From: Isoetes taiwanensis
Lineage: Eukaryota; Streptophyta; Lycopodiopsida; Isoetales; Isoetaceae
Direction: 5' to 3'
NCBI GenBank assembly: GCA_021234155.1
Contig: JAJEKV010000216.1
Location: forward strand, 558,001-622,000
DNA length: 64,000 bases
In this document: one piece after another, positions 7,985-54,315 of the stretch
How positions within the stretch are numbered: the stretch's first letter is position 1
Layout of the letters: every line of letters starts with the position of its first letter
Notes under the pieces: model-generated
Seen by the model: only the letters and a program-made list of their open reading frames with translations
What the model was told of the DNA's origin: nothing
Databases searched by the model: none
Position numbers and translations under genes: made by a program

Positions 7985-8609
7985 TGCAAATGCCTAGGTT
8001 TGGATGGCTTGCCAATTGAGTTCTTCCAGAAGTATTGGGAATGGCTGGAGGCGCATGATGTTGTTAATGGAAATTCATGCGTCGATGTATGTTAAGACTA
8101 GGGTTTGGGGAACAATGCACATCGATATGAAGCCGCATGCCTACGCTTTCGAGGCGATTGTTATGTTCCATGGTGAGCCGTCAGATGCCTTCTCACTTGG
8201 TCGTGGTATTCGCCAGGGATATCCTTTAGCACCACTGCTTTTCACAGTTGTCGCAGAGGCTTTGTCACATTTCACTATTGCAACCATGGAGGGACTTATC
8301 CATGGTCTTGCAATGGAGAATGGCACACAAGTGGTTTGCAATCAATATGCAGATGACATATTCCTCGTCCCGGTCGCTAATGCTGAGAATCTAGAAGCTG
8401 CGAAATTGTTCTTAGACACTTTCTCACGGCTTCCCCGTGTCCTTGTGGGATGGCGGTGTACGACTTTATGGACATTGGATACTCCGACCGGGCGTGTGTT
8501 CATGATTATCCATGGAAATTACTTGCTCATAGACAAGCCATCAAGTTGTGGGGATTCCAATTGGCATCCATGTTCTTCTGGCTGGAGCTGCATGGGAGGA
8601 GATCATTAA
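7985..8609 (+). pseudogene. Reverse transcriptase domain remnant of LINE-1
   Basis: The RT domain starts with a GLDGLPIEFFQKYW block at about 7999-8040 (RT motif 1 of plant L1 elements). It continues in an open frame from 8004 with RGIRQGYPLAPLLF, which is the conserved RQG-PL-PLLF block, and then NQYADDIFLV, which carries the catalytic YADD at about 8347-8358. The open frame runs to 8609, after which the thumb region is scattered over other frames. The stretch upstream of 8004 is out of frame with the rest, so the polymerase cannot be made. In an active element this domain would copy the LINE RNA at a nicked target site. The YADD box and RQG block make the call firm. Confidence 0.9.
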
Positions 8610-12566: not shown

Positions 12567-13655
12567 TCAACACCGCCTTGACGATTTGCTGAAATAAGTT
12601 AATAGATTTGTTGTGATGACCATGTTGAGAGCAATTTTGCAAGCATTGCATTGTATGTTTGCCAAATTCCTCTCGTGCATTCTCTCAAACACTTTCGAGA
12701 TGCATAATGCGGACATCCACATTCTTGTACATACATTGCGACAAAGTGATGTTTGCACCATAATATCGATTCTACTTCCTTTGTCTATGATAAGGGAATG
12801 GACTAACATGCCTTCTATCAATAAGTAGAGTGTGGTGCATGCATAAAACACAATAACAAATGCTACTCTATTGGGCATCATACCTTCTTTGTACATTTTC
12901 CAAAAAGAATGAGGGCAGCCTTGGCATGGCCATCTTTGAGAAAAGGTTGCAATCATTGCATTCCATGACACTTGAATCAGAATTATACAGTTTCTGAGGC
13001 ATTCTCTAAACTCCCGGATCTACCGTACATATTTAGAAGGCAATTTCCAATAGCAACAATTATCTCTAGCCTATTTTGTAAGGCATGAGCATGAATCATC
13101 TTGCCGATTGGAAAGTGTTACACTAGAAAAGGAACTTAAAATTTTCATATATGTGATTTGATTTGCTTTTACATATACTATACTCATCGTTTTAAAGATA
13201 TGAAACGCCGCTTCTCCATATCCAATATGGACATATGCCGCAAGCCCCAGCTAGCGTGCATGAAATCATATTTGGTTCTGTGATCCTTACAAAACATCTA
13301 CAAGCACTTTCCAAATCAGACATTTTCCATAAAGATCTACAAGTTAGGACTCCACAACCACATCTTCCCGAAATCTATATGCTAAACACAAGCATGTATA
13401 TGTTTGCCCTCTCCTAAATTTTCCAAGTTGGAGCATGCACAAAGAAGGTCGACAATGGTAAACTTGTTCGGCATTATACCTTCCACATGCATTTGTTGAA
13501 AAAGACCAAAGGGTCTCTTTGCTCTTCCCAAGAAGATCATAAACAAAATCAATGTGCTCCATGAAATGACATCTATCTGCTTTGATTTTGACAAAAACAC
13601 CATATGCACTAAATATGCGACCCACACTTTCCATCACGATATTAATAAAGCGCAT
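12567..13655 (-). pseudogene. PLS-type pentatricopeptide repeat (PPR) pseudogene
   Basis: PPR proteins bind organellar RNA and mostly act in editing, splicing or stability. On the minus strand, the upstream part (13382-13627 and overlapping frames) reads GLFQQMHVEGIMPNKFT then LLCACSNLENLGEGKHIHA. The downstream part (12567-12971) begins SWNAMIATFSQR, then MYKEGMMPNRVAF and a VLYAC-like stretch ending in a MLVHS segment. These are the L and S motif signatures of the plant PLS subfamily (SWNAMI, G-x-x-PN-x-x-T/F, C-x-x-L-G-x-x-IH). Frames change between the pieces and the upstream end is lost, so it is a pseudogene covering only a few repeats of what is normally a 500-900-residue protein. No DYW domain is visible. 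Confidence 0.75.
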
Positions 13656-15426: not shown

Positions 15427-17775
15427 CATGGACAACAATATTGTGTATTTTATTTTCACTACATTAATAATGATGTCAATGCCAAGCGCAACACAACAAT
15501 AACATTAGTCACCTAACAACTATGTATTTAATGCCCCTCCCCCTCCTCCATTTTTTACATTCTACATAAGTGCTTCTCGAGCCTATTTAGTAGTCTATTC
15601 ATAATAGTTTGGCAAGGCTATCAAGGCAAGACAAATGAGATGGTCACCAATAGTAGACCATGTGCCAATTGTGGACCATGCAAAAATGGATCACATTTAA
15701 CAACAATGGATCAACACATAAACTATTATCTCAATCTTAACAATTGGATGAAATACTGTTATCTCAATCATAAGTATTTGATGCAATGGACAAAAAATGG
15801 GTTCAATTTTAACCATCCAATCTTGATCCACAATAGGGGCTTACATTCTTTCTATTTCTATTTTAAATAAACATCATAATATTTCATGGAGCCATATCAT
15901 TTTAGTTAGTTATAGTAAAAGAAAATCCGTGAACTCCTGCACTATCAATTTAATGTGCATAGCTCTTGTGGACCCTAAATAGCATTGACTTGAGAGCCAT
16001 CAATGCAGGAATCATCTGCTAAGAATTTGGAGGAACGAGTATACATAGAAGCATTTTTTGAATGAGAAAAACTCACACACAATCTGTTCTCCTCAATTGC
16101 TCGTTTATCGTGTGTTAAGCTAAGTATGGCATTCATCCACAACCGGATGCCAGGAGTTCAAACGTTCCATCTTGAAAATATGATGGCATAGAAACCATCT
16201 ACGAAATCGATAGTAGGGGACGAGATCTACTTTCAATGCAAAGGACAGGCTCATTACAAACTTCAAATTCTTCAATTCAAATGACATCATGCCAGTAGAG
16301 GGCAGTCCTAATTGGTGGAGAATTCTGTGGGGTAATGAGACCAAACTTGATAATTACACCATGTGAGTGATGAAGGAGGAAAGGATTCCTCATGGTTTTC
16401 ATTGCTTGTCCCCAGTTTCTTCAAATCAGGAGATGGTCAAGAGCCTCCAACTCCAAAGGGGGTTGCCGGTCAAGCTCTAGTGAAGAGGGACTATGTCAAA
16501 CACGAAACTAGTAGAAGGTTGCAACGTGTTTGGAATGACAAATACACGTATCGTGGGCACGATGGGACAGAGCTTTTGTTCTCCCAGAGACTTCTTCCTT
16601 TCCTCCTGAAGGGTCCGTTCCCAACATAAACTTTCAGTTCGGCCTTCAGTTCGGGGAATAGTACTTTTGTTACAGCCGGGCCGACATAATTTTCTTTTCT
16701 GCCACATTCTACTAGGTCAGGTGTAAATCTTATTTCTTAGAAGTTTGTGCCATTGGCCTCCACGAGAATGTGACCCACTTTAATTAGATGCTGCTTTCCT
16801 ATTTAATGAACCACTCTTCCTCTCATGAGTCAATGGGCTAATCCATTAGAGAGAAAGATGTGTTATGATCTTTTCCTTTGTATTATCTATATCCTCTACA
16901 AAGTAGCATGAAGATTCATATGTGGTGCAGATGAGCTTTCTATAGGAGTCTTATCATTAACCATTAAGATCTAAGAACCTTTTAATTAATAATTATAGGA
17001 TCTTTGAGTTAAGCTGCAGCTGGTATAGCACTAATACTATCTTTAATGTTATTTTCCCTTTCTATAATGATCCATTTCATCATATATCTTCTTCCTTATT
17101 TTCTTTTTCCTCTGTATTCTTTTGAAGCTTCCATTATCCTATATTGAAGCTTCATTCTCGCCTTCTAGATATTGAAGAAGGTACCTTTAATGGTCATTGC
17201 ACTACTAGTAGGATTTGAGACTATTTATATTCTTTAAACATCCTTATTTTTGGAGCTTGTTGTTGTGAATGTACTTCTTATTGTAGGTGGTTGTTTTCCT
17301 GCGAGATGTCTCCTTAAATTCTGGGCAATTATAACATTGACAACAACATTGTGTATTTATTTTCACTAGACTAATGATGATGCCGATGCCAATCGCAACA
17401 CGACAATAACATTAGTCAACCAACAACTGTGTATTTATCCACCCCACCCACCCACCCCCACCCCAAAGTGCTTCTCGAGCCTATTAGTAGTTTATTCATA
17501 ATTTTTGGCAAGGACATTAGGCAAGACAAATTAGATTGTCACCAATAGTAGACCATGTGTCAATTGTGGGCCATGTAAAAATGCATCCACATTTAACAAT
17601 AGTGGATCAACACATAAACTATTATCTCAATCTTAACAATTGCATGAAATTGATAAAAAATGTGTGCAATCCTAACCATCCAATCTTGATATTTTATTTC
17701 ATGGGACCAATTTTAGCCTGTGGTTATAATAAAAGAAAATCCATGAGCTGTGGCACAATCAATTGAATTCAACTT
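15427..17775. mobile_element. Direct-repeat pair bounding ~1.4 kb; possible small terminal-repeat element
   Basis: The segments 15427-15955 and 17334-17775 are similar along their length and in the same orientation. Both open with GACAACAA-ATTGTGTATTT, share GTGCTTCTCGAGCC-like and ACACATAAACTATTATCTCA strings, and end near an AAAGAAAATCC string. They bound about 1.4 kb without a recognisable gag-pol. They could be the ends of a small non-autonomous terminal-repeat element, or two independent copies of one repeat. I see no certain terminal dinucleotides or target duplication. It is old: the two copies differ at many places. Confidence 0.45.
16363..16629 (+). other. Unidentified 88-codon open frame
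   Basis: An open frame with a protein-like start (acidic, then hydrophobic) and a basic middle including VKRDYVKHETSRRLQRVW. It lies inside the interval bounded by the repeats at 15.4 and 17.3 kb. No family is recognised and there is no evidence of expression. Confidence 0.2.
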
Positions 17776-18186: not shown

Positions 18187-18196
18187 AACCTTGAGG
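18187..18196 (+). repeat. Target-site duplication, left copy (MITE-1)
   Basis: AACCTTGAGG here is repeated exactly at 18669-18678, immediately outside the inverted ends of the MITE. A 9-11-bp duplication is the hallmark of Mutator-like transposition. Confidence 0.85.
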
Positions 18197-18668
18197 AAGA
18201 CCAGGATATATCATCAGGGATGTGGTTAACCCGACAAACCGCTATCGCCATTGTGGTTAATCAGGGACCTGTAGGTTTGAAGCCCAAAACCAACCGCTTT
18301 TTGCCCTTTTTTATCGATTACGCTCTATTTCGTCTTAAAATCTCTTCCTCTCTTCATCAATCTAACATAAAGAGGCATACAAAGCGATTGGCATGCTTTT
18401 TAAAGTGGATCAAACCGCTACCTGAGCAGCAAAGAGCGTCGATCAAAATTTATGCCCCCACAAGACAGCAGTTCTACGCTTGGTTTTTGTCCGGATTAAC
18501 CACTTTTTGTCGGGGATTAACCATTTGGGCTGATATCGGATGTCGGGATTAACCACCTCAGGTTGATATCGGATGTCCGGATAAACCACTCGGCTGATCG
18601 GGGATGTCCGGATTAACCACTGCTTTTGTCCGGGATTAACCACATCCGGGATGATATATACGGAGTTC
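18197..18668. mobile_element. MULE-type MITE (MITE-1), 472 bp
   Basis: A non-autonomous DNA element. Its ends are imperfect inverted repeats: ATATATCATC-x-GGGATGTGGTTAA at about 18208-18229 and its reverse complement at about 18635-18660. It is flanked by the 10-bp direct repeat AACCTTGAGG. The left end has two GTGGTTAA-type motifs; the right end has six ATTAACCAC-type motifs, one being ACCAT and one ATAAACCAC. The interior (about 18270-18450) is related to that of MITE-2 at 50094-50548, including the shared strings CTTCCTCTCTTCATCAA and CAACCGCTTTT. No transposase is encoded. The exact target duplication suggests it is younger than the material it sits in. Confidence 0.85.
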
Positions 18669-18678
18669 AACCTTGAGG
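18669..18678 (+). repeat. Target-site duplication, right copy (MITE-1)
   Basis: Exact direct copy of AACCTTGAGG from 18187-18196. Confidence 0.85.
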
Positions 18679-20195
18679 TATATTTTTATTTCTTATGGCA
18701 TAAAGTTGAATGCACTCGTCTGCGATGTAAAACTAATTCAGCTAGAATTACAACTAGATCTTTACAACTAGATGGACCCATTAACGTGGTATTGTGGGTG
18801 TTTACTTGGCATTTAACTAAGATGATCGACTTACTTTACAAGTTTAATATCTAAAGCCATCAATTGCGAGGATGAATTGTGGAAGCTACTTAAACAATTG
18901 AGCCGCCTAAGATCTCGTATGGACCATGTAATTCTCGAAAAGCCCTAAGAAGACAACGAATTTTTACGAGACCGGGAAAGGGATCTCAACATTTGTCGAG
19001 AGAAGCCCAAGATCCGATCGAGCAAGCCATCCCCAACCCTTTAAACCTTTTACAGTGAATTGAGATTAACTCTTTTCTTATTTAGCGCACTAGATCTCTA
19101 ATATGGGAAATTTAGGTCTATCCCGGGCGTAAGATTCTAGGAGAAAAAGGACGAGCTGAAGGCCCTTCATGTTCGTTTGTTTGAAATCGGATTACAGTTC
19201 AAAACTCTTAACAAAGTTATTGAAGTGGAAGCTAAGATAAATTCCTTAGCGACCATGACTTTTCGATTAATTGAAAAGCTCGGAGGAAGGCCTCTTTGAA
19301 AGATCTGGCACACTTAAAGGCACTGACTATTCTTACATTGACTATTATTGACCCCTGGATTAAACAGTAATATGAACTTAATGATTGAAGAATTGAAGCA
19401 TATGTTATCCTTTTTAGACTTTTGACCACATTTTTAAACAAGGTAATATGAACTTAATGATTGAAGAATTGAAGCATATGTTATCCTTTTTAGACTTCTA
19501 TTCTGCATCTCCATGTTTTCGCGGTGTTCGTCCAACATGTGATTAAATTGGTTGCAGCTCACTCTCCACTTCAAAAACAACGGTTCTTGGTCCTTTACTA
19601 TTTGATCTTCTTTGGATCTTTTCTCAAATTTCTTCCCTCTCCACCATGTTTGTATTATGTCATGCCAAAGTCGTGGTTCATATCGGAAGGTTTTACGTCA
19701 GAAGTTACCTAAGACAATGGTTGTGAAAATACTATTGCTCATACCTAATCATTGAGCTTTACAAATTTAATGGTCAAGTGCTTCTTGAATATTTAGAAAG
19801 TAAGGCTATTTTGAAAGCCTTAGAAAAATTACCTATTAGCGTATTTTATGTCGGCCAAATAATTTGAAGCCAAGACTCATTTAAATTCACGGTGCCAAAT
19901 CAACAGACATCAGACATACACATCATAATGAAATTGGTCCATCATTAAGTTGTCGGATCATTAATCCCTAAGGAGTATGAGTCGGTGATATGTATAATCG
20001 TCAATACATTTTAAATCGTGTTATGCTAAAGTAAAATTCCATGGTTCAATATGTTATTTTGTGAGGTTGAATTAAATAATTGTGGCATTGCAAAACCATG
20101 GACATTAAGTTAAATATACAAATTTGCTTAGGTGATTTATGCATAAGATGCTCAATTGGATCTAACAAGTGAGAATTAGATTACTTCATCTAGTA
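18679..20195. other. No gene recognised; 76-bp tandem duplication
   Basis: AT-rich. A block of about 55 bp beginning GTAATATGAACTTAATGA at 19367-19421 is repeated almost perfectly at 19443-19497, a 76-bp period. The near-identity points to a recent duplication. Frames such as 18651-18854 and 19524-19712 show no recognisable motif. Confidence 0.55.
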
Positions 20196-20199
20196 TCAA

Positions 20200-20680
20200 C
20201 CATCATTCAATTAAATTGGGATTATGTCTTAATTTTGGGGCAAATTTCATATTGTATATTTTTAATAGCATATTCAACCCCCAATGATATCATAGCCTTC
20301 TTCCCGACATCATGAGGTATTGTAATTCTCACATTTCTACCGGAGCAGTTTTTGGAGTCCATGAGTACAATACACTTTCAAAGTCTAGCCAAAGATCGGG
20401 ATCACTTTCAGTTTCTCCTCCATTGCTTTGTCCAACAATCTAAGTACCTTTCTTTATTCGATACATTGGTCAACTGATGCACTAGACACAACCATTCTAC
20501 CCGCAAATGGTTGAAGTCAATATTACCTTCTTCTTGCAAATATCGAGATGGTGTACCCCAACCACTTTGGATAGGTGTCTAAATCACGACTTTACTACCA
20601 CAAATTGGTGACATTCCAAGTCAATGGAAGGTTCATAAGCTTCCATGCCTAGAAATTTTGGCCTATTGTTCTTAGGACCA
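20200..20680 (-). pseudogene. C-terminal fragment of the transposase-like protein seen at 22.6-26.0 kb
   Basis: Read on the minus strand, pieces such as GPKNNRPKFLGM, then YLDCWTKQW, then RITIPHDVGKKAM match the order and wording of the C-terminal part of the larger copy at 22.87-23.29 kb (GPKKDRPKYLGM ... VTIPRDVRNKV). The DNA alignment extends past the coding end into the shared plus-strand phrase TTGGGATTATGTCTTAATTT at 20216 and 22645, so the copies arose by duplication of DNA, not of a spliced message. The frame is broken. Only the last ~130 codons remain. Confidence 0.6.
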
Positions 20681-20704
20681 ACATTATTAATGCATTCAAT
20701 GAGT

Positions 20705-22619: not shown

Positions 22620-25600
22620 CGATTGGAACCATCAATCAATTAAATTGGGATTATGTCTTAATTTTGGGATAAATTTTATATTGCACTTTTTTAGTAACTT
22701 TGTTAAATTCACTTTTTTAGTAACTTATTTGCCCTTAGACTAGAATAGACGTTAACATATAATCACATGGGGAATATAAATTCACACCTTAACTTCAAAT
22801 TACAAAATCATATAGTACACAACTTTTATTAATCAGAGAAAAGTTACATAGTAACTGTTTTTCATTTTTCCACTAGCATCCCCAAGGATATGAGAACCTT
22901 ATTCCTTACATCCCGAGGTATTGTAACTCTCGGGCATTTGTTTTTACTAGGAATAGTTTTTGGAGTCCACGAGTACAATACGGTTTCAATGTCTAGCCAA
23001 AGATGGGATCACTTGGATTTCTCCTCCACCTCTTTGTCCAACAATCAATATCTTTCTTTATCGGTGACATTACTCAACCGATGTATCGACACCACCATTC
23101 CACGCCGCACCTTATTGAAGTTAACATCACCTTCTTCTTTGCAAATATCCGAGATAGTGTATCCCAACCACACCGGATAGGTCTCTAGATCCGTTGGTTT
23201 TACTACTACAAATTGGTGGCACTCCACGCGTCCAAGAGAAGGTTCATAACAATCCATGCCTAAATATTTTGGCCTATCCTTCTTAGGACCAACATAGTGT
23301 TTATCGATTGAGGAGGAGCATATGCCTTCACAATGCTACTAATGGTACCATCATCTTCCAAGACACCGACTAATGTTTTCCACTTACTTTAGGGAACCAC
23401 CCTTCTAGCGAGCTCTTCGAGGATGTGTCTCTACCTCATCCAACAAGTTGATCACCTTCTTCCAATAATCTATCAATGCACCATTAGTGTCATCCAATTA
23501 GTTTGCCAATGCTTGATGTAGTCATTGATGCCATCCTTAGTCAAGCCCAATTGCTTGACTTCTTGCTTGGTTTTAGAGCTTTTGGTTGACCAGAGGTATC
23601 ATAGGCTTGCCATTTGCATCCCTGGCGCCACGCCCCACCTCTCCACTTCTCCTCCTCAAGGTCTCATTTTCCATTGCATGATTGGAATCCTTCTCTCACC
23701 CAAAAAGTGAATTGAAGAGGTCTAGAATGACCTTCCATGTCGAGAGAGCATAACCATCCACAAAACTCTTCCAATCGGGCACTTCTTCTATGATAGATCC
23801 TATAGGAGATGGATTTGTACATCCATGAAATATTTCCAATAGCACGGGAAAGTTGGTAACTGTCTCATTGTCTCAATACATGACTATATTTTCCAAACAA
23901 TGCATCCACATCCTCATGAGTATGTCCGGGGCATTAGGAACCCCAAATTGACTCTTTCAAAAAATACCCACAATTTGTTAAGTAGGATAGGAAAGAAAAC
24001 ATCCACGATTTCTTATTTTGACCAAAGACAATTATCTAGTTGCAAGAGGAGTCAAGATCTCGAGGTTTAGCGCGAGATGTTGAAGCTCCAACATGTTCAT
24101 TAGGTCCATTCCTCCTAAATCTTGCCTTGCTAAACTTTTCAATACTATTAGGGGTTCCATCCAACAATGCACTATGTAGTGCCCGGCTAGTCATGGGATC
24201 CCTGTAGGTGACCATTGTAACCCTTCTCATAGTTTCTTAAACACCTCATGATATTCCCAATGTGAAAATCTGGACCATCACTCCACAACTCTAAACCGAA
24301 ATGGCCATAATAGGTGCGAGGAGGCGCCCATGCAATATTGCCCCGGTCATTGAAATCACGCAAAGGGTATGATCTTCCACATGACTTAGGAATGTACTTG
24401 AATTGTGGAAGACAAGTCTTCGTTGGTCCATTTTATCATGTATAATACATAGATAGTTCGGGGATTCACCTATATACAATATGGATATGCCATCTGCGTT
24501 ACTAGGGTAGCAAGAAAACCCATAGTATACGGTCCAAAAGAACTAGAAAATTACCCATATAAAAATGTACGGGCTTAAAATATTGCAAAATGTGATAAAA
24601 CCACCCCTTTCCATATATTTTTCGTATTTAAAGCTCTCCAAAAAATAACCCATTTCTTATAACTTAGATGGTTCATACGGGGATTTTGGTGAACCCCCTT
24701 GAGATAGTTATTAGGTTCCATTGCAGATAAGGTCCTCCACATCCAATAAGTTGATCTACATGATAGTTGATCCATCATATGGTCCTTCATATGTTCCCTT
24801 ATCTTTGCCCTTAGACTTGGTTGCACGGGTCTTATCTAGTGTCTCCTTCAAATTTTTTAGCACATAAATTGCACTTGGCAAAGTTGTTTGAAGTTGCTAT
24901 GGTCACATGCTTGAAATGCTTATTCCATAGCCTACTAAACTGGGCTGGGATATAGAGGCCACCCAAGTTCCCGAAGCAATGCATTTATTTCCTCTAATAT
25001 GCTCTTCTCCGGGTACAATGGGATGGCAATCTCTTTTCAACAATAACTCTACCCTGTTCATCCTTCTTACTCTTATGTGGCATGTTTTCTGCATTGAAAT
25101 CCACATATCTTTCAAATATTTCCTTTGCAGCTATAGTTCTTGAGGTAGGCCTTACCAGGCCAGTGTTCCCATGCAATGCAATTTTACTACCATTTTCATG
25201 TCTCTTTTGCCAGTTGTGCCAAGAAGAGGTTGGAATTCCATGTATAGCCATCCATGCTTTTGAACATATCCACTTTCCATTCAATGGGAATCTTTTCTTC
25301 TTTGATCTTTCATCCTGAATTGCATAGCCAAATATGGTGTACATGAAATTCCTCCTGCTATCACACTTATGTTCCTGATATGTAGCTCTTGCTACCACCA
25401 TCTCCTCTATTGTGAACATTCTAATACAGAGGCCCAACAACACTCACTTCCTCTAACCTTCATCAAGGCTTCAGGAGAACAATCATAATCTGACTTGCAT
25501 CTTTTGGTGGGATAATGTTTGAAAGTTGGAAGTGGCCTCTTGCTACACTGTGTGAACATTATTGACAATGGTTCTACATCTATAGGAAACGTGTAGTTCC

Positions 25601-26030
25601 CCTCCAGTTGAATACTGTCCCTAGGCCATGCAACAATAGTTGGAACCTCTAGTTGCTTTCACACAAGCAAAGCATTCTTGTTTGCCTGAACCCTTTTCCT
25701 TCCAATTGTCATATAATTTTGAGATTGCCACACCTAACCTGTCCTCCCCTAATCTTTCATCATTCACTGCATTGATAGGATCTGCTAGAACAATAATCCC
25801 TTCTCCTACTGCCTCTCTGTTGCATGCATGCGGGGATCTTGACCTTTTGTTTTTCCAATCGAACCCGAGTATAAAGTACAATTTCCTTTTCATTTGAGGT
25901 CTTTTCCTTTCCTTTGCCATCATCCTTTTCATTTGAGGTCTTTTCCTTTCCTTTGCCATCATCTTTGTCATCTTCATCCTTTTCATTTCTCGGGTCTTTT
26001 CCTTTCCTTTCCCATCTTCATTAGTTGGGG
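22620..26030 (-). pseudogene. Transposase-like gene remnant (DUF7869-type, tentative)
   Basis: A long minus-strand coding region running from about 26.0 kb down to 22.87 kb. In order: a Lys/Met-rich start (25.9 kb); an acidic region with VGEGIIVLADPINAV; a cysteine-containing segment ECFACVKATRG; an open stretch with GNYTFPIDVEPLS; a block at 25.0-25.4 kb with NFMYTIFGYAIQD, KWICSKAWMAIHGIP and RPTSRTIAAKEIFERYVD; NAENMPHKSKK; further on CIIHDKMDQRRLV at 24.42 kb; and a C-terminal part with GPKKDRPKYLGMDCYEP and YPVWLGYTIS. The DKMD string and this order recall a widespread plant and metazoan protein group (DUF7869) thought to be transposase-like; I am recalling this, not showing it. Frames change several times, so it is broken. 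No inverted ends were found. Confidence 0.55.
25886..25990. repeat. 39-bp tandem repeat within the coding remnant
   Basis: TTTTCATTTGAGGTCTTTTC begins at 25886 and again at 25925, with a partial third unit near 25979. The 39-bp period is a multiple of three and on the minus strand encodes a repeated 13-residue Lys/Arg/Met-rich unit (MMAKERKRPQMKR), at the N-terminal part of the transposase-like remnant. Confidence 0.8.
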
Positions 26031-41654: not shown

Positions 41655-42180
41655 ATGATTTACTTCCTTGCATACAAGGCAATGAGTAATAAGATCTAAC
41701 ATTTTTTGGATTTGCATAGTGTGGATGTTGCACAATCTCATCACGTCTCATCATTATTTGCTTCCTTGCATATAAGACAATGAGTTAATAAGATCTAACA
41801 TTTTTTGGATTTGCATAGTGTGGATGTTGCACAATCTCATCACGCCTCATCATTTGATTCTTTGCGCATTGTTTCACCCGACTGATCCGAGATTGATTAA
41901 TATATCGTGGAAAACTGGCTATTCAAGTTCTGAAACAAAGATGAGGTTAGGTTTCTTGCTTGCCTTCATCCAGTCTATTACATGCATGACAAGATGATGC
42001 GTCATCCCGTTTGTTGCATGCATGATAGGTTGAAACACATACAGCTTCGGATATTCTTTCTCAAGCATTCTTTTTGTCGCGTCTCATCATATTTAAGCCT
42101 TTTGCAGATTGTTTCCACCTACACGGACCTGCACATTGTTTAATATAATGTGGAAAAGTGTGTTGAATTTCTGACAAAGA
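41655..42180. repeat. 98-bp tandem duplication and a larger degenerate repeat
   Basis: CTTCCTTGCATACAAGGCAA at 41663 recurs as CTTCCTTGCATATAAGACAA at 41761, with nearly identical flanks over about 98 bp. A third, degenerate block near 42080-42180 repeats the CTCATCAT ... GATTGTTTC ... GTGGAAAA order seen at about 41845-41910. Confidence 0.75.
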
Positions 42181-46760: not shown

Positions 46761-46768
46761 AGTGTAGA

Positions 46769-48030
46769 GTGGGGATTGAGCTGGTTAAAGGCTTGAGGAA
46801 GGGCCTGCAACTCCTTCGCACTGTGGCCGCAAAGATTCCACCGTTGTTTGGACCATTCTTCGCGGTCTTTGGACCATTCCGAGAGATTATTGAAGATGTG
46901 AGAAGGTACGCCGATAATGAATCGTCTGCTTGGAAATTGTTCGATTTAAAGAAACGAGAAATTGCTGAAATGCTTAAGCATAAGGTAGAGTTTGATTGCC
47001 GAGTTTTGCATACAAGCCTTGAAGACGCTTATCGGCTGGACAGGATCACAATATTAGAGGGCTTCAAGTCATCAAATAATAACGGTTTGCTACTCCACAA
47101 TACCGCTTTCTGTTTGATTTCAATCTTAGACAAAAGATTGCTTTCGGATATTGATGAAAACAATTTAACTGAAATCAAATATTTGGGGCAAGGCAGTTAT
47201 GGATGTGTTATGAAGGCAAAGTTGGATGGATTACCTGTGGCAGTGAAAAGATTCCGCTACAAAGATCATTTTGAGGACGAGCTAAAAATATTCAAGGAAT
47301 TCTTGGAAACGGATTATCCTTCCCATGTTGTGGGAATATTAGGTTGCTCGGAATCGGATAGTAGTATCATCTTAGAGCTTATGGATAAAAATTTAAGTAC
47401 TTTTAGGGACGCCTCACATGTCACCCAAGCAAGTTTTTGCGGATGTCAAGCCATTGAGAGGCTCAAGTGTAAACTCGCTCCAACAGCCTGTGGATGAACG
47501 GCTCAGACGTCAAACCGGGCATCTCAGATGAACTACATGTGAATACTAAAAGATTTACATGTGAGGCGCCTCTTATCCAAGAAGAAAGTGGGCCTTCTTT
47601 GCCATTTTTCTCGAAAGTTAATTGATATTATGATTCAAATTGCAAGAGGGCATGAGATTTTCGCATAGTCACGATGTGATTTATCGAGATTTGACACCGC
47701 CAACGCCTTGATCTGGTCGTGGAGGGTCAAGGTCTTGTCGCCATTGCTGATTTCTTGTATCTAAAGAACATTTTCGCATTTAATCCAACAATACTCCCCT
47801 ACAGAGGTACAAGCTTATATATGGCCCCGAGATGATGCAAGAGGGTCGTAGTAAGTACTCAAGAAAAGTGGACGCCCATAGTTTTGGCATGGTCCGCTGG
47901 GAAATTCTTGTGTAAGCCAACAGATCTAGACCCCAAACAAATGAAGAATGGCAAAAGGCCTCCGCTGCCGAAAAATATTCCAATCGCCTTTGGGAGGTTA
48001 ATTCAACGCTGTCGGACCGTGAGGCTTAAT
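46769..48030 (+). pseudogene. Protein kinase pseudogene with helical N-terminal domain
   Basis: ATG 46769 opens a 242-codon frame. Residues 1-125 are mostly helical and hydrophobic early (LVKGLRKGLQLL), then charged. Then comes a kinase N-lobe: glycine loop GQGSYGCVMKA (about residue 141), VAVKRF with the ATP-binding lysine, and a hinge-like IILELMDKNLS. After 47.4 kb the frame breaks, but later subdomains follow in order: VIYRDL at 47.68 kb (HRD changed to YRD), IADF at 47.73 kb, YMAPEM at 47.82 kb and DAHSFGM at 47.87 kb. The helical domain before a kinase resembles the layout of plant MLKL-like proteins, but that is a guess. It is the first of a row of same-strand gene fragments extending to 60.8 kb. 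Confidence 0.75.
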
Positions 48031-50082: not shown

Positions 50083-50093
50083 CTTCAACTTTG
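50083..50093 (+). repeat. Target-site duplication, left copy (MITE-2)
   Basis: CTTCAACTTTG is repeated exactly at 50549-50559. Length 9-11 bp, depending on where the inverted ends begin. Confidence 0.85.
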
Positions 50094-50548
50094 GACCGCC
50101 GTATTTAGAGTCCGGATGTGGTATTTTCGACTTTTTGTGGTATTTCCCGCCACCCGTTATCACGCATCAGAACTTCACAGGTTTCAAGCCCGTAATCAAC
50201 CGCTTTTGGGGCATTTTTTGGATCAATCCGGCTCTATCCGGGCTCAAATCGCTTCCTCTCTTCATCAAACTAACGTTAAAAAGGCGGATAAAGGGATTAG
50301 AAGGGCTTTTGAAGCAGTTCAAGCCGGCCCACGAGCTGCAAGAATGATCCGACTAAAGATCTCTCCCGGGCCAGCTTGATTTGGTTTTTGGTTTTTGGCC
50401 GAAATACCACTTTTGGCCGGAAATACCACCCTTTTGGCCAGAAATACCATTTTTTGGCCGTAAATACCACCGGCCGATAATGGATGTCCAGAATACCACC
50501 AAGAAAGTCCCGAAATACCACATCCCAGACTCTAAATACGGACGTCCA
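50094..50548. mobile_element. MULE-type MITE (MITE-2), 455 bp, in the GTPase remnant
   Basis: Inverted ends: CCGTATTTAGAGTC-x-GGATGTGGTATTT at about 50099-50125 and its reverse complement at about 50510-50545. The left end has two GTGGTATTT motifs; the right end has six AAATACCAC-type motifs (one is ACCAT, one GAATACCAC). The interior aligns with MITE-1 at 18197-18668. No coding capacity. Removing the element plus one copy of the duplication restores continuous sequence TPTFNF-AVCGASGVGKS in the host gene. Confidence 0.88.
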
Positions 50549-50559
50549 CTTCAACTTTG
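50549..50559 (+). repeat. Target-site duplication, right copy (MITE-2)
   Basis: Exact copy of CTTCAACTTTG from 50083-50093. The right flank continues directly into the P-loop coding sequence. Confidence 0.85.
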
Positions 50560-50628
50560 CCGTCTGTGGAGCTTCCGGAGTTGGTAAATCCACTTTCATC
50601 AACAGCTTCTTCCAACTCACGGGTGATG

Positions 50629-50700
50629 GTAAGCGCCCTTAAGATTAATTGACTTGCTTTTTCTTGCAAACTCGCTCACCCTTGGGTGAAATTTTGTTAG
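50629..50700 (+). other. 72-bp intron in the IRG-type remnant
   Basis: Donor GTGATG|GTAAGC and acceptor ATTTTGTTAG, with a T-rich interior. Joining the flanks keeps the GTPase frame (FFQLTGD then DAAMVGITE). A retained intron shows that this copy came from genomic DNA and not from a spliced message. Confidence 0.75.
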
Positions 50701-51311
50701 ATGCTGCTATGGTCGGGATTACTGAAACCACTGATAGAATACAACGTTATACGAGTTCTAAATTTCCGGCATTGTTTTCTCGGGACATCCCTCGATGGCG
50801 GCACTTCAAAGCATCTAGCAAGAACTTATTTTAAAGATAAGAAGCTCTACGCTTTCGATTGTATTCTCATTTTAACCAGTGATAGATTCCGGGAGGTAGA
50901 TGTCCAAGTCGCTGTAGAAGCCACGAAATGGAAGAAACATTATGCGATGGTTCGAACCAAAGCAGATGATAGCCTCAGGAACAAAGCCTCGTGATATGAA
51001 ATGGAATGGTCCAATGGCGTAATTAGCTCGTATTTTCCCGAAGAATTGAAGAAAAGCCTTAAAGCCCATGAGAAAGTGCCGGAGGAGGCGATACTCTTCG
51101 CTATATGTTCCCGCATGTTCGTGGGCCGCAAAAATTGGTATGAGAATGGAATGCACCATAGCCTCAAAGGTATGGACGAAGAAGCTTTGTTAGCTCATAT
51201 TCTTCAGTCTGCAAAAGATCGGTTAACTGACCCAATCGAATGGCCTATAGGACACAAATCTGTTTAACCTAGGGTATGGGTAACCAATTGCTTGTTATGC
51301 TGTTAATTTTA

Positions 51312-53589: not shown

Positions 53590-54315
53590 GGTACCTTTCA
53601 TGCCGCATTACGGAGGTCCAAGCCGGTGGAAAAGGATCCGCCATTCAGCCTCCTAAGATTAAAAACTTCCGATTCAAGGAGCTTGAGCATGCTACCGGGA
53701 GGATTTAGCCTCGAGACTCGTTGGGAAAAGGTAGCTATGGTTGGGTTTACAAAGGAACCCTCTTGACGGAATGAAGGCTGCCAGAAACGCGGCTTCATTA
53801 GGGCGCAGGAATTTGCCGGATGAAAATCTTTGAAAACGAGCTCCAAATTTTATCCAAGATCCGAGCTCCGTGCTTGTGAATCTGATAGGTTTTAGCAGAG
53901 ATTGCAAGGAATTGCGCCCGGGTGGTAGAATTCATGGCAAATGGAACTCAGATGATATCTTACATTGCGTGCATGAATCTTTAAGTTGGAATCTTCGTGG
54001 TTCAAATTTTGTTTTTACATGTGTAGCCAAAGCAATCCGAGCTTTGCATTGTGCAACTCCTCCGGTGATTCATCGAGATATAAAATCTTCTAATGTGCTT
54101 TTAGATTCAGATTGGAATGCAAAAGTACATTTTGGTCCGGCATTACGAGGAAGATGTAATCCGCTTGGCCACCCCTTGGGAACAATGGGTTATTTAGATC
54201 CAAAGTTATGTTATTCTACCATTTGAGCACAAAAATAGATGTATTTAGTTTTGGAATTCTTCCGCTTGAGATTATGAGTGGAAGAATTGCTATTGATGTA
54301 CAAAGATCATCCTCC
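53590..54315 (+). pseudogene. CRINKLY4-related receptor-like kinase pseudogene
   Basis: A plant receptor-like cytoplasmic or CR4-related kinase fragment. In order: IQPPKIKNFRFKELEHATG (53.64 kb, the pre-kinase block), DSLGKGSYGWVYKGTL (glycine loop), VLVNLIGFSRDCKE (53.87 kb), AKAIRALHCATPPVIHRDIK with HRD at about 54.07 kb, SSNVLLDSDWNAKV, a degraded DFG-LALRG, LGTMGYLDP (54.18 kb), and then, in another frame, STKIDVFSFGIL-like and EIMSGRIAIDVQ. Several frame changes and stops occur. The kinase sequence ends abruptly at about 54.31 kb, where SEC15 sequence begins. It is truncated before the last kinase subdomains. Confidence 0.8.

Follow-up and report, generated by a model that had tools for sequence, protein, structure and literature searches.

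Two related, putatively Mutator-like MITEs of Isoetes taiwanensis, each repeating its own spelling of a 9-bp end motif

Two short, non-coding elements, M1 (472 bp, positions 18197 to 18668) and M2 (455 bp, positions 50094 to 50548), lie in the window, that is, the whole stretch of 64,000 nucleotides of Isoetes taiwanensis DNA that was analysed. They are alignable over almost their full length, and in each a 9-bp motif occurs eight times, twice at the left end and six times at the right. The spelling of the motif is specific to the element: at every one of these sites, at both ends, M1 and M2 have their own version, and the two versions differ at three of the nine columns. We consider it probable, at about 0.65, that the two belong to sister subfamilies of non-autonomous Mutator-like elements, each following its own diverged transposase.

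The relationship between M1 and M2 was established by aligning them. The local alignment scored 189, while the maximum reached with 500 dinucleotide shuffles of M1 was 41. The homologous interior, 18273 to 18417 in M1 and 50179 to 50326 in M2 (plus strand in both), is 73% identical across 149 columns in blastn; counted over 150 aligned columns it holds 39 mismatches (p 0.268, JC d 0.332). These mismatches show no codon phase, with 15, 12 and 12 per codon position in the phase of M1 and 14, 13 and 12 in that of M2, and the one open frame per element that was compared with Pfam matched no family, so a coding interior was rejected. The initial annotation had described two related MITEs with a common interior and a similar size, and this description was confirmed. 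M1 is bordered by an exact target-site duplication of 10 bp, AACCTTGAGG (18187 to 18196 and 18669 to 18678), and M2 by an exact one of 11 bp, CTTCAACTTTG (50083 to 50093 and 50549 to 50559); the duplications of about 10 bp claimed initially are thus exactly that in M1, and 11 bp in M2. With borders placed at random 400-499 bp apart, an exact direct repeat of at least 9 bp was obtained once in 200,000 trials. The CpG observed/expected ratios are 1.00 in M1 and 1.04 in M2, compared with 0.72 in the window and 0.76 and 0.86 in the flanks, values that are high, not extreme, since 14% and 11% of 470-bp windows are equally high. These high ratios and the exact duplications suggest, as a weak argument, that M1 and M2 are young insertions of old lineages, whose 27% divergence would then be older than their insertion and have arisen in the active parents.

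M2 lies within a GTPase-like gene stretch (50542 to 50991, plus strand), of which 50701 to 50991 matches the Pfam family IIGP (E 3e-9). A P-loop-like sequence was seen by eye just past M2, and that 32-aa stretch alone gave no Pfam match. The gene looks decayed, because the frames before and after M2 disagree. Protein-kinase fragments flank it, one at 46763 to 47494 (plus strand; Pkinase, E 7e-4, short of the curated cut-off) and one at 53834 to 54223 (plus strand; Pkinase, E 3e-8, above the cut-off). Elsewhere the window holds a reverse-transcriptase fragment (7998 to 8606, plus strand; RVT_1, E 7e-6) and a PPR-like fragment (12570 to 13019, minus strand; PPR_2, E 5e-4), neither of which reaches its curated cut-off; the PPR-like fragment would suit a plant host. 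Stop-free stretches at 24190 to 25658 (minus strand), adjoined by repeats at 20198 to 20684 and 22627 to 23295, are perhaps, by eye, pieces of one unclassified transposon protein; 24190 to 24432, 24997 to 25443 and 25410 to 25658 matched no Pfam family. A duplicated stretch has its copies about 1.9 kb apart (15449 to 15827 and 17356 to 17690, 81-95% alike in pieces), and local tandem duplications occupy 19367 to 19497 (100% alike) and 41687 to 41854 (99% alike).

Being short and non-coding, with inverted ends and exact target duplications, M1 and M2 are MITEs by structure; MITEs also have many uniform copies per genome, and the 64 kb of the window hold two. Their assignment to the Mutator-like class is provisional and is drawn from the length of the target duplication and the layout of the ends alone. 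Mutator-like elements duplicate up to 11 bp of their target, and the 10 and 11 bp found here, both exact, fall within their range of about 8-11 bp. The inverted repeats, imperfect and 52-71 bp long, are shorter than the >100 bp typical of the class. In the accessible part of a study of Aedes aegypti the duplication range is given as 8-10 bp, and shorter inverted repeats also occur there, below 60 bp in 2 of the 14 families (PMC5225508). CACTA elements, which have CACTA tips and a 3-bp duplication, were rejected because the left tips read AAGACC and GACCGC and the duplications are 10 and 11 bp; the same two lengths speak against hAT elements, which duplicate 8 bp. The autonomous partner of a Mutator-like element encodes a MULE-type DDE transposase; no Pfam match to a transposase was obtained in 20 segments of the window (one of 32 aa, and 19 from a total of 148 that are stop-free over at least 80 aa). 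In the viral_contigs collection, the motif-array patterns returned 27 and 103 stretches, 7 of the 130 with an array and an inverted copy within 700 bp; no relatives were seen among these 130 loci, the best blastn E-value to M1 or M2 being 0.010. Exact interior and tip patterns had 0 matches in viral_contigs, and the interior pattern had 0 in genome_contigs, an absence that means little because the patterns were exact and the collections are viral, bacterial and archaeal.

The motif copies were counted on the strand that reads ...ACCAC. In M1 all eight are within one mismatch of ATTAACCAC, five of them exact, and none is within one mismatch of AAATACCAC; in M2 all eight are within one mismatch of AAATACCAC, six of them exact, and none is within one mismatch of ATTAACCAC. 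Across 1000 shuffles of the elements, the counts never exceeded 2 for the own type and 2 or 3 for the other. The left motifs of M1, on the minus strand, are L1 (GTTAACCAC, 18222 to 18230) and L2 (ATTAACCAC, 18253 to 18261). Its right motifs, all on the plus strand and lettered by the class of the spacer that precedes them, are A1 (18495 to 18503, spacer TTTTTGTCCGG), A2t (18516 to 18524, with the CCAT end, ATTAACCAT), B1 (18548 to 18556, spacer GATATCGGATGTC), B2 (18581 to 18589, the variant ATAAACCAC), B3 (18612 to 18620) and C (18635 to 18643), which adjoins the tip and is followed by ATCC. M2 has L1 (50118 to 50126) and L2 (50137 to 50145) on the minus strand, both spelled AAATACCAC, the latter with a spacer resembling class B of M1; on the plus strand follow A1 (50402 to 50410), A2 (50421 to 50429), A3t (50442 to 50450, with the CCAT end), A4 (50462 to 50470), B (50491 to 50499, the variant GAATACCAC) and C (50513 to 50521), again adjoining the tip and followed by ATCC. 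A motif-blind scan of the whole window, which asked for any 8-mer of at least three different letters that occurs at least four times per 250 bp and has an inverted copy no more than 600 bp away, picked out M1 and M2 as the sole places, whereas 20 Markov-2 control windows yielded none. The layout that the initial annotation had reported, with two motifs on the left, six on the right and a single right motif ending in ACCAT, was found in both elements, as was the specificity of the spelling at both ends.

The initial claim that all the motifs had changed together holds throughout each element, but the change itself is partial, because the ACCA of the motif is invariant in the 16 copies and the difference is confined to the three columns. 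Motifs within an element are on average 0.63 apart (maximum 2) and motifs of different elements 3.3 (minimum 2). In all six pairs formed between the elements, columns 2, 3 and 4 differ identically, TTA in M1 and AAT in M2. B3, not B2, was taken into this pairing; the unpaired B2 of M1 (ATAAACCAC) is an exception, with the base of M2 at column 3. Assuming simple substitution at the interior d and an ancestor with uniform motifs, the probability that independent substitution fixes at least three of the nine columns is 3e-21, 6e-13, 8e-9 or 1e-4 for six, four, three or two places, and it is still 3e-6 for three independent places at d = 1.2, all these values being computed post hoc and with the B2 exception uncounted. 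If conversion keeps the two ends alike, about three places count (class A, the inner pair and the tip pair), a number that still excludes chance. The statement that independent mutation would not produce such a change thus stood up, with P about 8e-9 even under the three-place count.

The ends are inverted over more sequence than the 10-12 bp first estimated by eye, an estimate that has to be replaced. In M1 an imperfect repeat at 18206 to 18265 (plus strand), which includes L1 and L2, pairs with 18608 to 18659 (minus strand), which includes B3 and C, at a score of 58 (maximum of 1000 shuffles, 37). In M2 the repeat at 50094 to 50161 (plus strand), with its two motifs, pairs with 50476 to 50546 (minus strand), with B and C, at a score of 75 (maximum of 1000 shuffles, 34). 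The repeats are thus 52-60 bp long in M1 and 68-71 bp in M2, imperfect, with two motifs per end. On the right, two motifs are thus counterparts of the left pair, and the remaining four of the six are extra and present on that side only: A1, A2t, B1 and B2 in M1, and A1, A2, A3t and A4 in M2. GGATGTGGT is common to the four tips, and outside it stand the terminal 12-mers, GGATATATCATC at the left of M1 (18204 to 18215, plus strand), GTATATATCATC, read inward, at its right (18650 to 18661, minus strand), and GTATTTAGAGTC at both ends of M2 (50101 to 50112, plus strand, and 50528 to 50539, minus strand, read inward). The left 12-mer of M1 has 1 difference from the right one and 5 from that of M2. 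The outermost ends do differ between the elements and are inverted within each, as had been described, but the 12-mers are still related, the right one of M1 and that of M2 having 4 mismatches in 12 positions. Capture of donor flank as the source of the outermost 7-9 bp is disfavoured, because the tips share GACC on the left and ACGGA on the right, an argument that is weak with two copies.

To see how the units correspond, the motifs were sorted by the 18 bases that precede each of them. In both elements a class A spacer (TTTTTG.CCG) is closest to the interior, class B (GATA..GGATGTC) comes next and C adjoins the tip. The right array of M1 is made of two A-like units, three B and one C, and that of M2 of four A, one B and one C; the three class B units of M1 are about 31 bp each, and the class A units of M2 stand about 20 bp apart. 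The right arrays therefore grew differently, by class B in M1 and by class A in M2. Compared across elements, the A1 flanks scored 9 (P 0.00035 per comparison, from shuffled 18-mers), the B flanks 7 (P 0.0046) and the flanks of the CCAT units 5 (P 0.04); because 64 cross comparisons were made, the A1 match alone is clearly beyond chance. The C, L2 and L1 flanks did not match their counterparts (scores 1, 1 and 2). Some units match others better: the L2 flank of M2 scored 10, 8 and 4 with B1, B2 and B3 of M1, above the 7 and 7 of the B flank of M2 with B1 and B2, and the A2t flank of M1 scored 10 with A2 of M2, above the 5 with its CCAT partner A3t. The flank of C in M1 is A-like, scoring 8 with both A2 and A3t of M2, and 9 and 11 with A1 and A2t of M1 itself. 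The pairing is thus not unique: it is secure for A1 and reasonable for B, and for the rest it goes by position.

These arrays bear on the question of whether homogenisation without selection could have produced the pattern, by re-amplification of the arrays through tandem duplication and matching of the ends through gene conversion or template switching, so that a single mutant motif came to occupy all the sites of an element. The different expansion of the two right arrays agrees with this, and so does the A-like spacer of C in M1, which looks as though units had been copied around. In addition, the tip-region spacer changed along with the motif at both ends, to TTTGTC in M1 and AAAGTC in M2, as conversion predicts. 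Against it, class A and class B spacers stay distinct within one element (scores 1-5 in M1 and 2-4 in M2), the motif changed in both classes, and the A1 spacer, TTGGTTTTTG.CCG, is recognisable in both elements although the motif next to it differs. A conversion tract would have to span about 9 bp and then stop, and tracts of a few bases are unexpected. Duplication and conversion alone are a poor explanation, because A1, which is present on the right only, changed its motif and kept its spacer recognisable, and we regard homogenisation as unlikely. Inside the inverted repeats, where motif and spacer changed jointly, conversion and selection are both possible. The initial annotation had offered the two as alternatives; either fits the inverted repeats, but the A1 unit means that they are not equal.

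Less probable still is a chimaeric origin, in which the interior would be common through recombination or capture and the ends would derive from two transposon families that were never united. In its favour, the interior is the sole blastn match between M1 and M2, and the left ends align poorly across the elements, their score of 24 being no higher than shuffles can reach (maximum 28). Against it, the right ends do match, with a score of 54 and a shuffle maximum of 28, and both elements have in common the spacers of A1 and B, the CCAT variant, the GGATGTGGT of the four tips and the order of the parts. That the motif is instead the site of a host factor, for instance a trihelix GT factor, that silences or drives the element and whose changes the motif tracks, is improbable: its ground is a resemblance, the opposite strand of the M1 motif (GTGGTTAAT) containing GGTTAA, a GT-1 core, whereas GTGGTATTT in M2 departs from that core in eight equally uniform copies, and a host factor would not readily account for the change in the terminal 12-mers.

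Under the reading of two transposase-matched subfamilies, M1 and M2 would descend from one ancestral cut-and-paste element in which this layout was already in place. The 9-bp motif would be the site bound by the DNA-binding domain of the transposase, as the initial annotation had proposed and as comes naturally by analogy with the hexamers of Ac and the repeats at the left end of Hermes. With two copies per inverted end and four more in the right-only array, the right end would be conspicuous and the element asymmetric. Once the subfamilies had separated, two transposase lineages would have come to prefer different bases at columns 2-4, the ACCA core keeping its role, and in each lineage only copies with sites that fit the current enzyme would have kept moving. 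The sites and the terminal 12-mers would then converge on one spelling because ill-fitting copies stopped moving, and later local tandem duplication would have reshaped the arrays, through class B units in M1 and class A units in M2. The homology, the layout, the uniform motifs, the identical three-column change in the pairs formed and the borders are what the analysis shows directly; from there we infer a transposase-site role of the motif, a probable pair of transposases and a motif change driven by selection for mobility.

Similar patterns are on record in CACTA elements, which makes the surprise smaller than the initial annotation held (PMC2613891, PMC8978399, as far as their accessible parts go). 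In the accessible part of the soybean study, Tgm1 and Tgmt* are likewise two subfamilies of one genome separated by their repeated subterminal motifs, which differ at 6 positions, with a parallel divergence of the transposase, and coevolution of the motif and the DNA-binding protein is posed there as a question (PMC2613891). As in M1 and M2, motif numbers are asymmetric in Tgmt*, with 4 on the left and 24 on the right; unlike our pair, the soybean elements have CACTA ends, a 3-bp target duplication and motifs of 17-20 bp, and a putative autonomous element is known (PMC2613891). The Chenopodium CACTA elements called Jozin also keep a single motif spelling per element. The four elements described in the available text each repeat one 12-bp motif 19-23 times, in copies that are 83-100% alike, the motif being of the type TATTTGTAAC.. 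in two and TATTTGCGTC.. in the other two, and by our own reading the terminal repeats end in letters that match the motif in 2 of the 4, C. pamiricum (TTTGTAAC) and C. iljinii (TTTGCGTC) (PMC8978399). Unlike M1 and M2, Jozin is a CACTA element, was compared across species and has roughly equal motif numbers at both ends (PMC8978399).

Among Mutator-like elements, the Muta1-14 families of Aedes aegypti resemble M1 and M2 in having short subterminal repeats, in tandem and of 9-15 bp in 10 of the 12 families with long inverted repeats, and they include many non-autonomous derivatives, with a repeat number that varies in those of Muta1 (PMC5225508, accessible part). They differ in their target duplications of 8-9 bp and in inverted repeats that exceed 100 bp in 12 of the 14 families, and the available text notes no paired switch of motifs; Muta1 has been studied in a yeast assay (PMC5225508). 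The ends of hAT elements also carry short repeated motifs: in the accessible parts of the sources, those of Ac/Ds have AAACGG hexamers bound by the Ac transposase (PMC3260210), and Hermes has subterminal repeats, bound by its transposase at the left end and arranged differently at the two ends (PMC10368747). The hAT motifs and ends are other than those of M1 and M2, and the duplications of Ac/Ds are 8 bp (PMC3260210, PMC10368747). No Mutator-like pair of this kind was present among the literature matches listed, in which subscription journals are thinly covered. M1 and M2 add no new kind of element, the pattern being already on record in other plant transposons.

In this pair the motif and its spacer are partly separable, and A1 points to selection on the site, not to homogenisation of a repeat. 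It is conceivable, and we hold it only tentatively, that M1 and M2 are the record of a single Mutator-like lineage whose transposase has fully switched its specificity, with three bases replaced at every site and at both ends, at least partly without the spacers, leaving two incompatible subfamilies in one genome. If this is true, the order in which an enzyme and its many sites change would be open to study.
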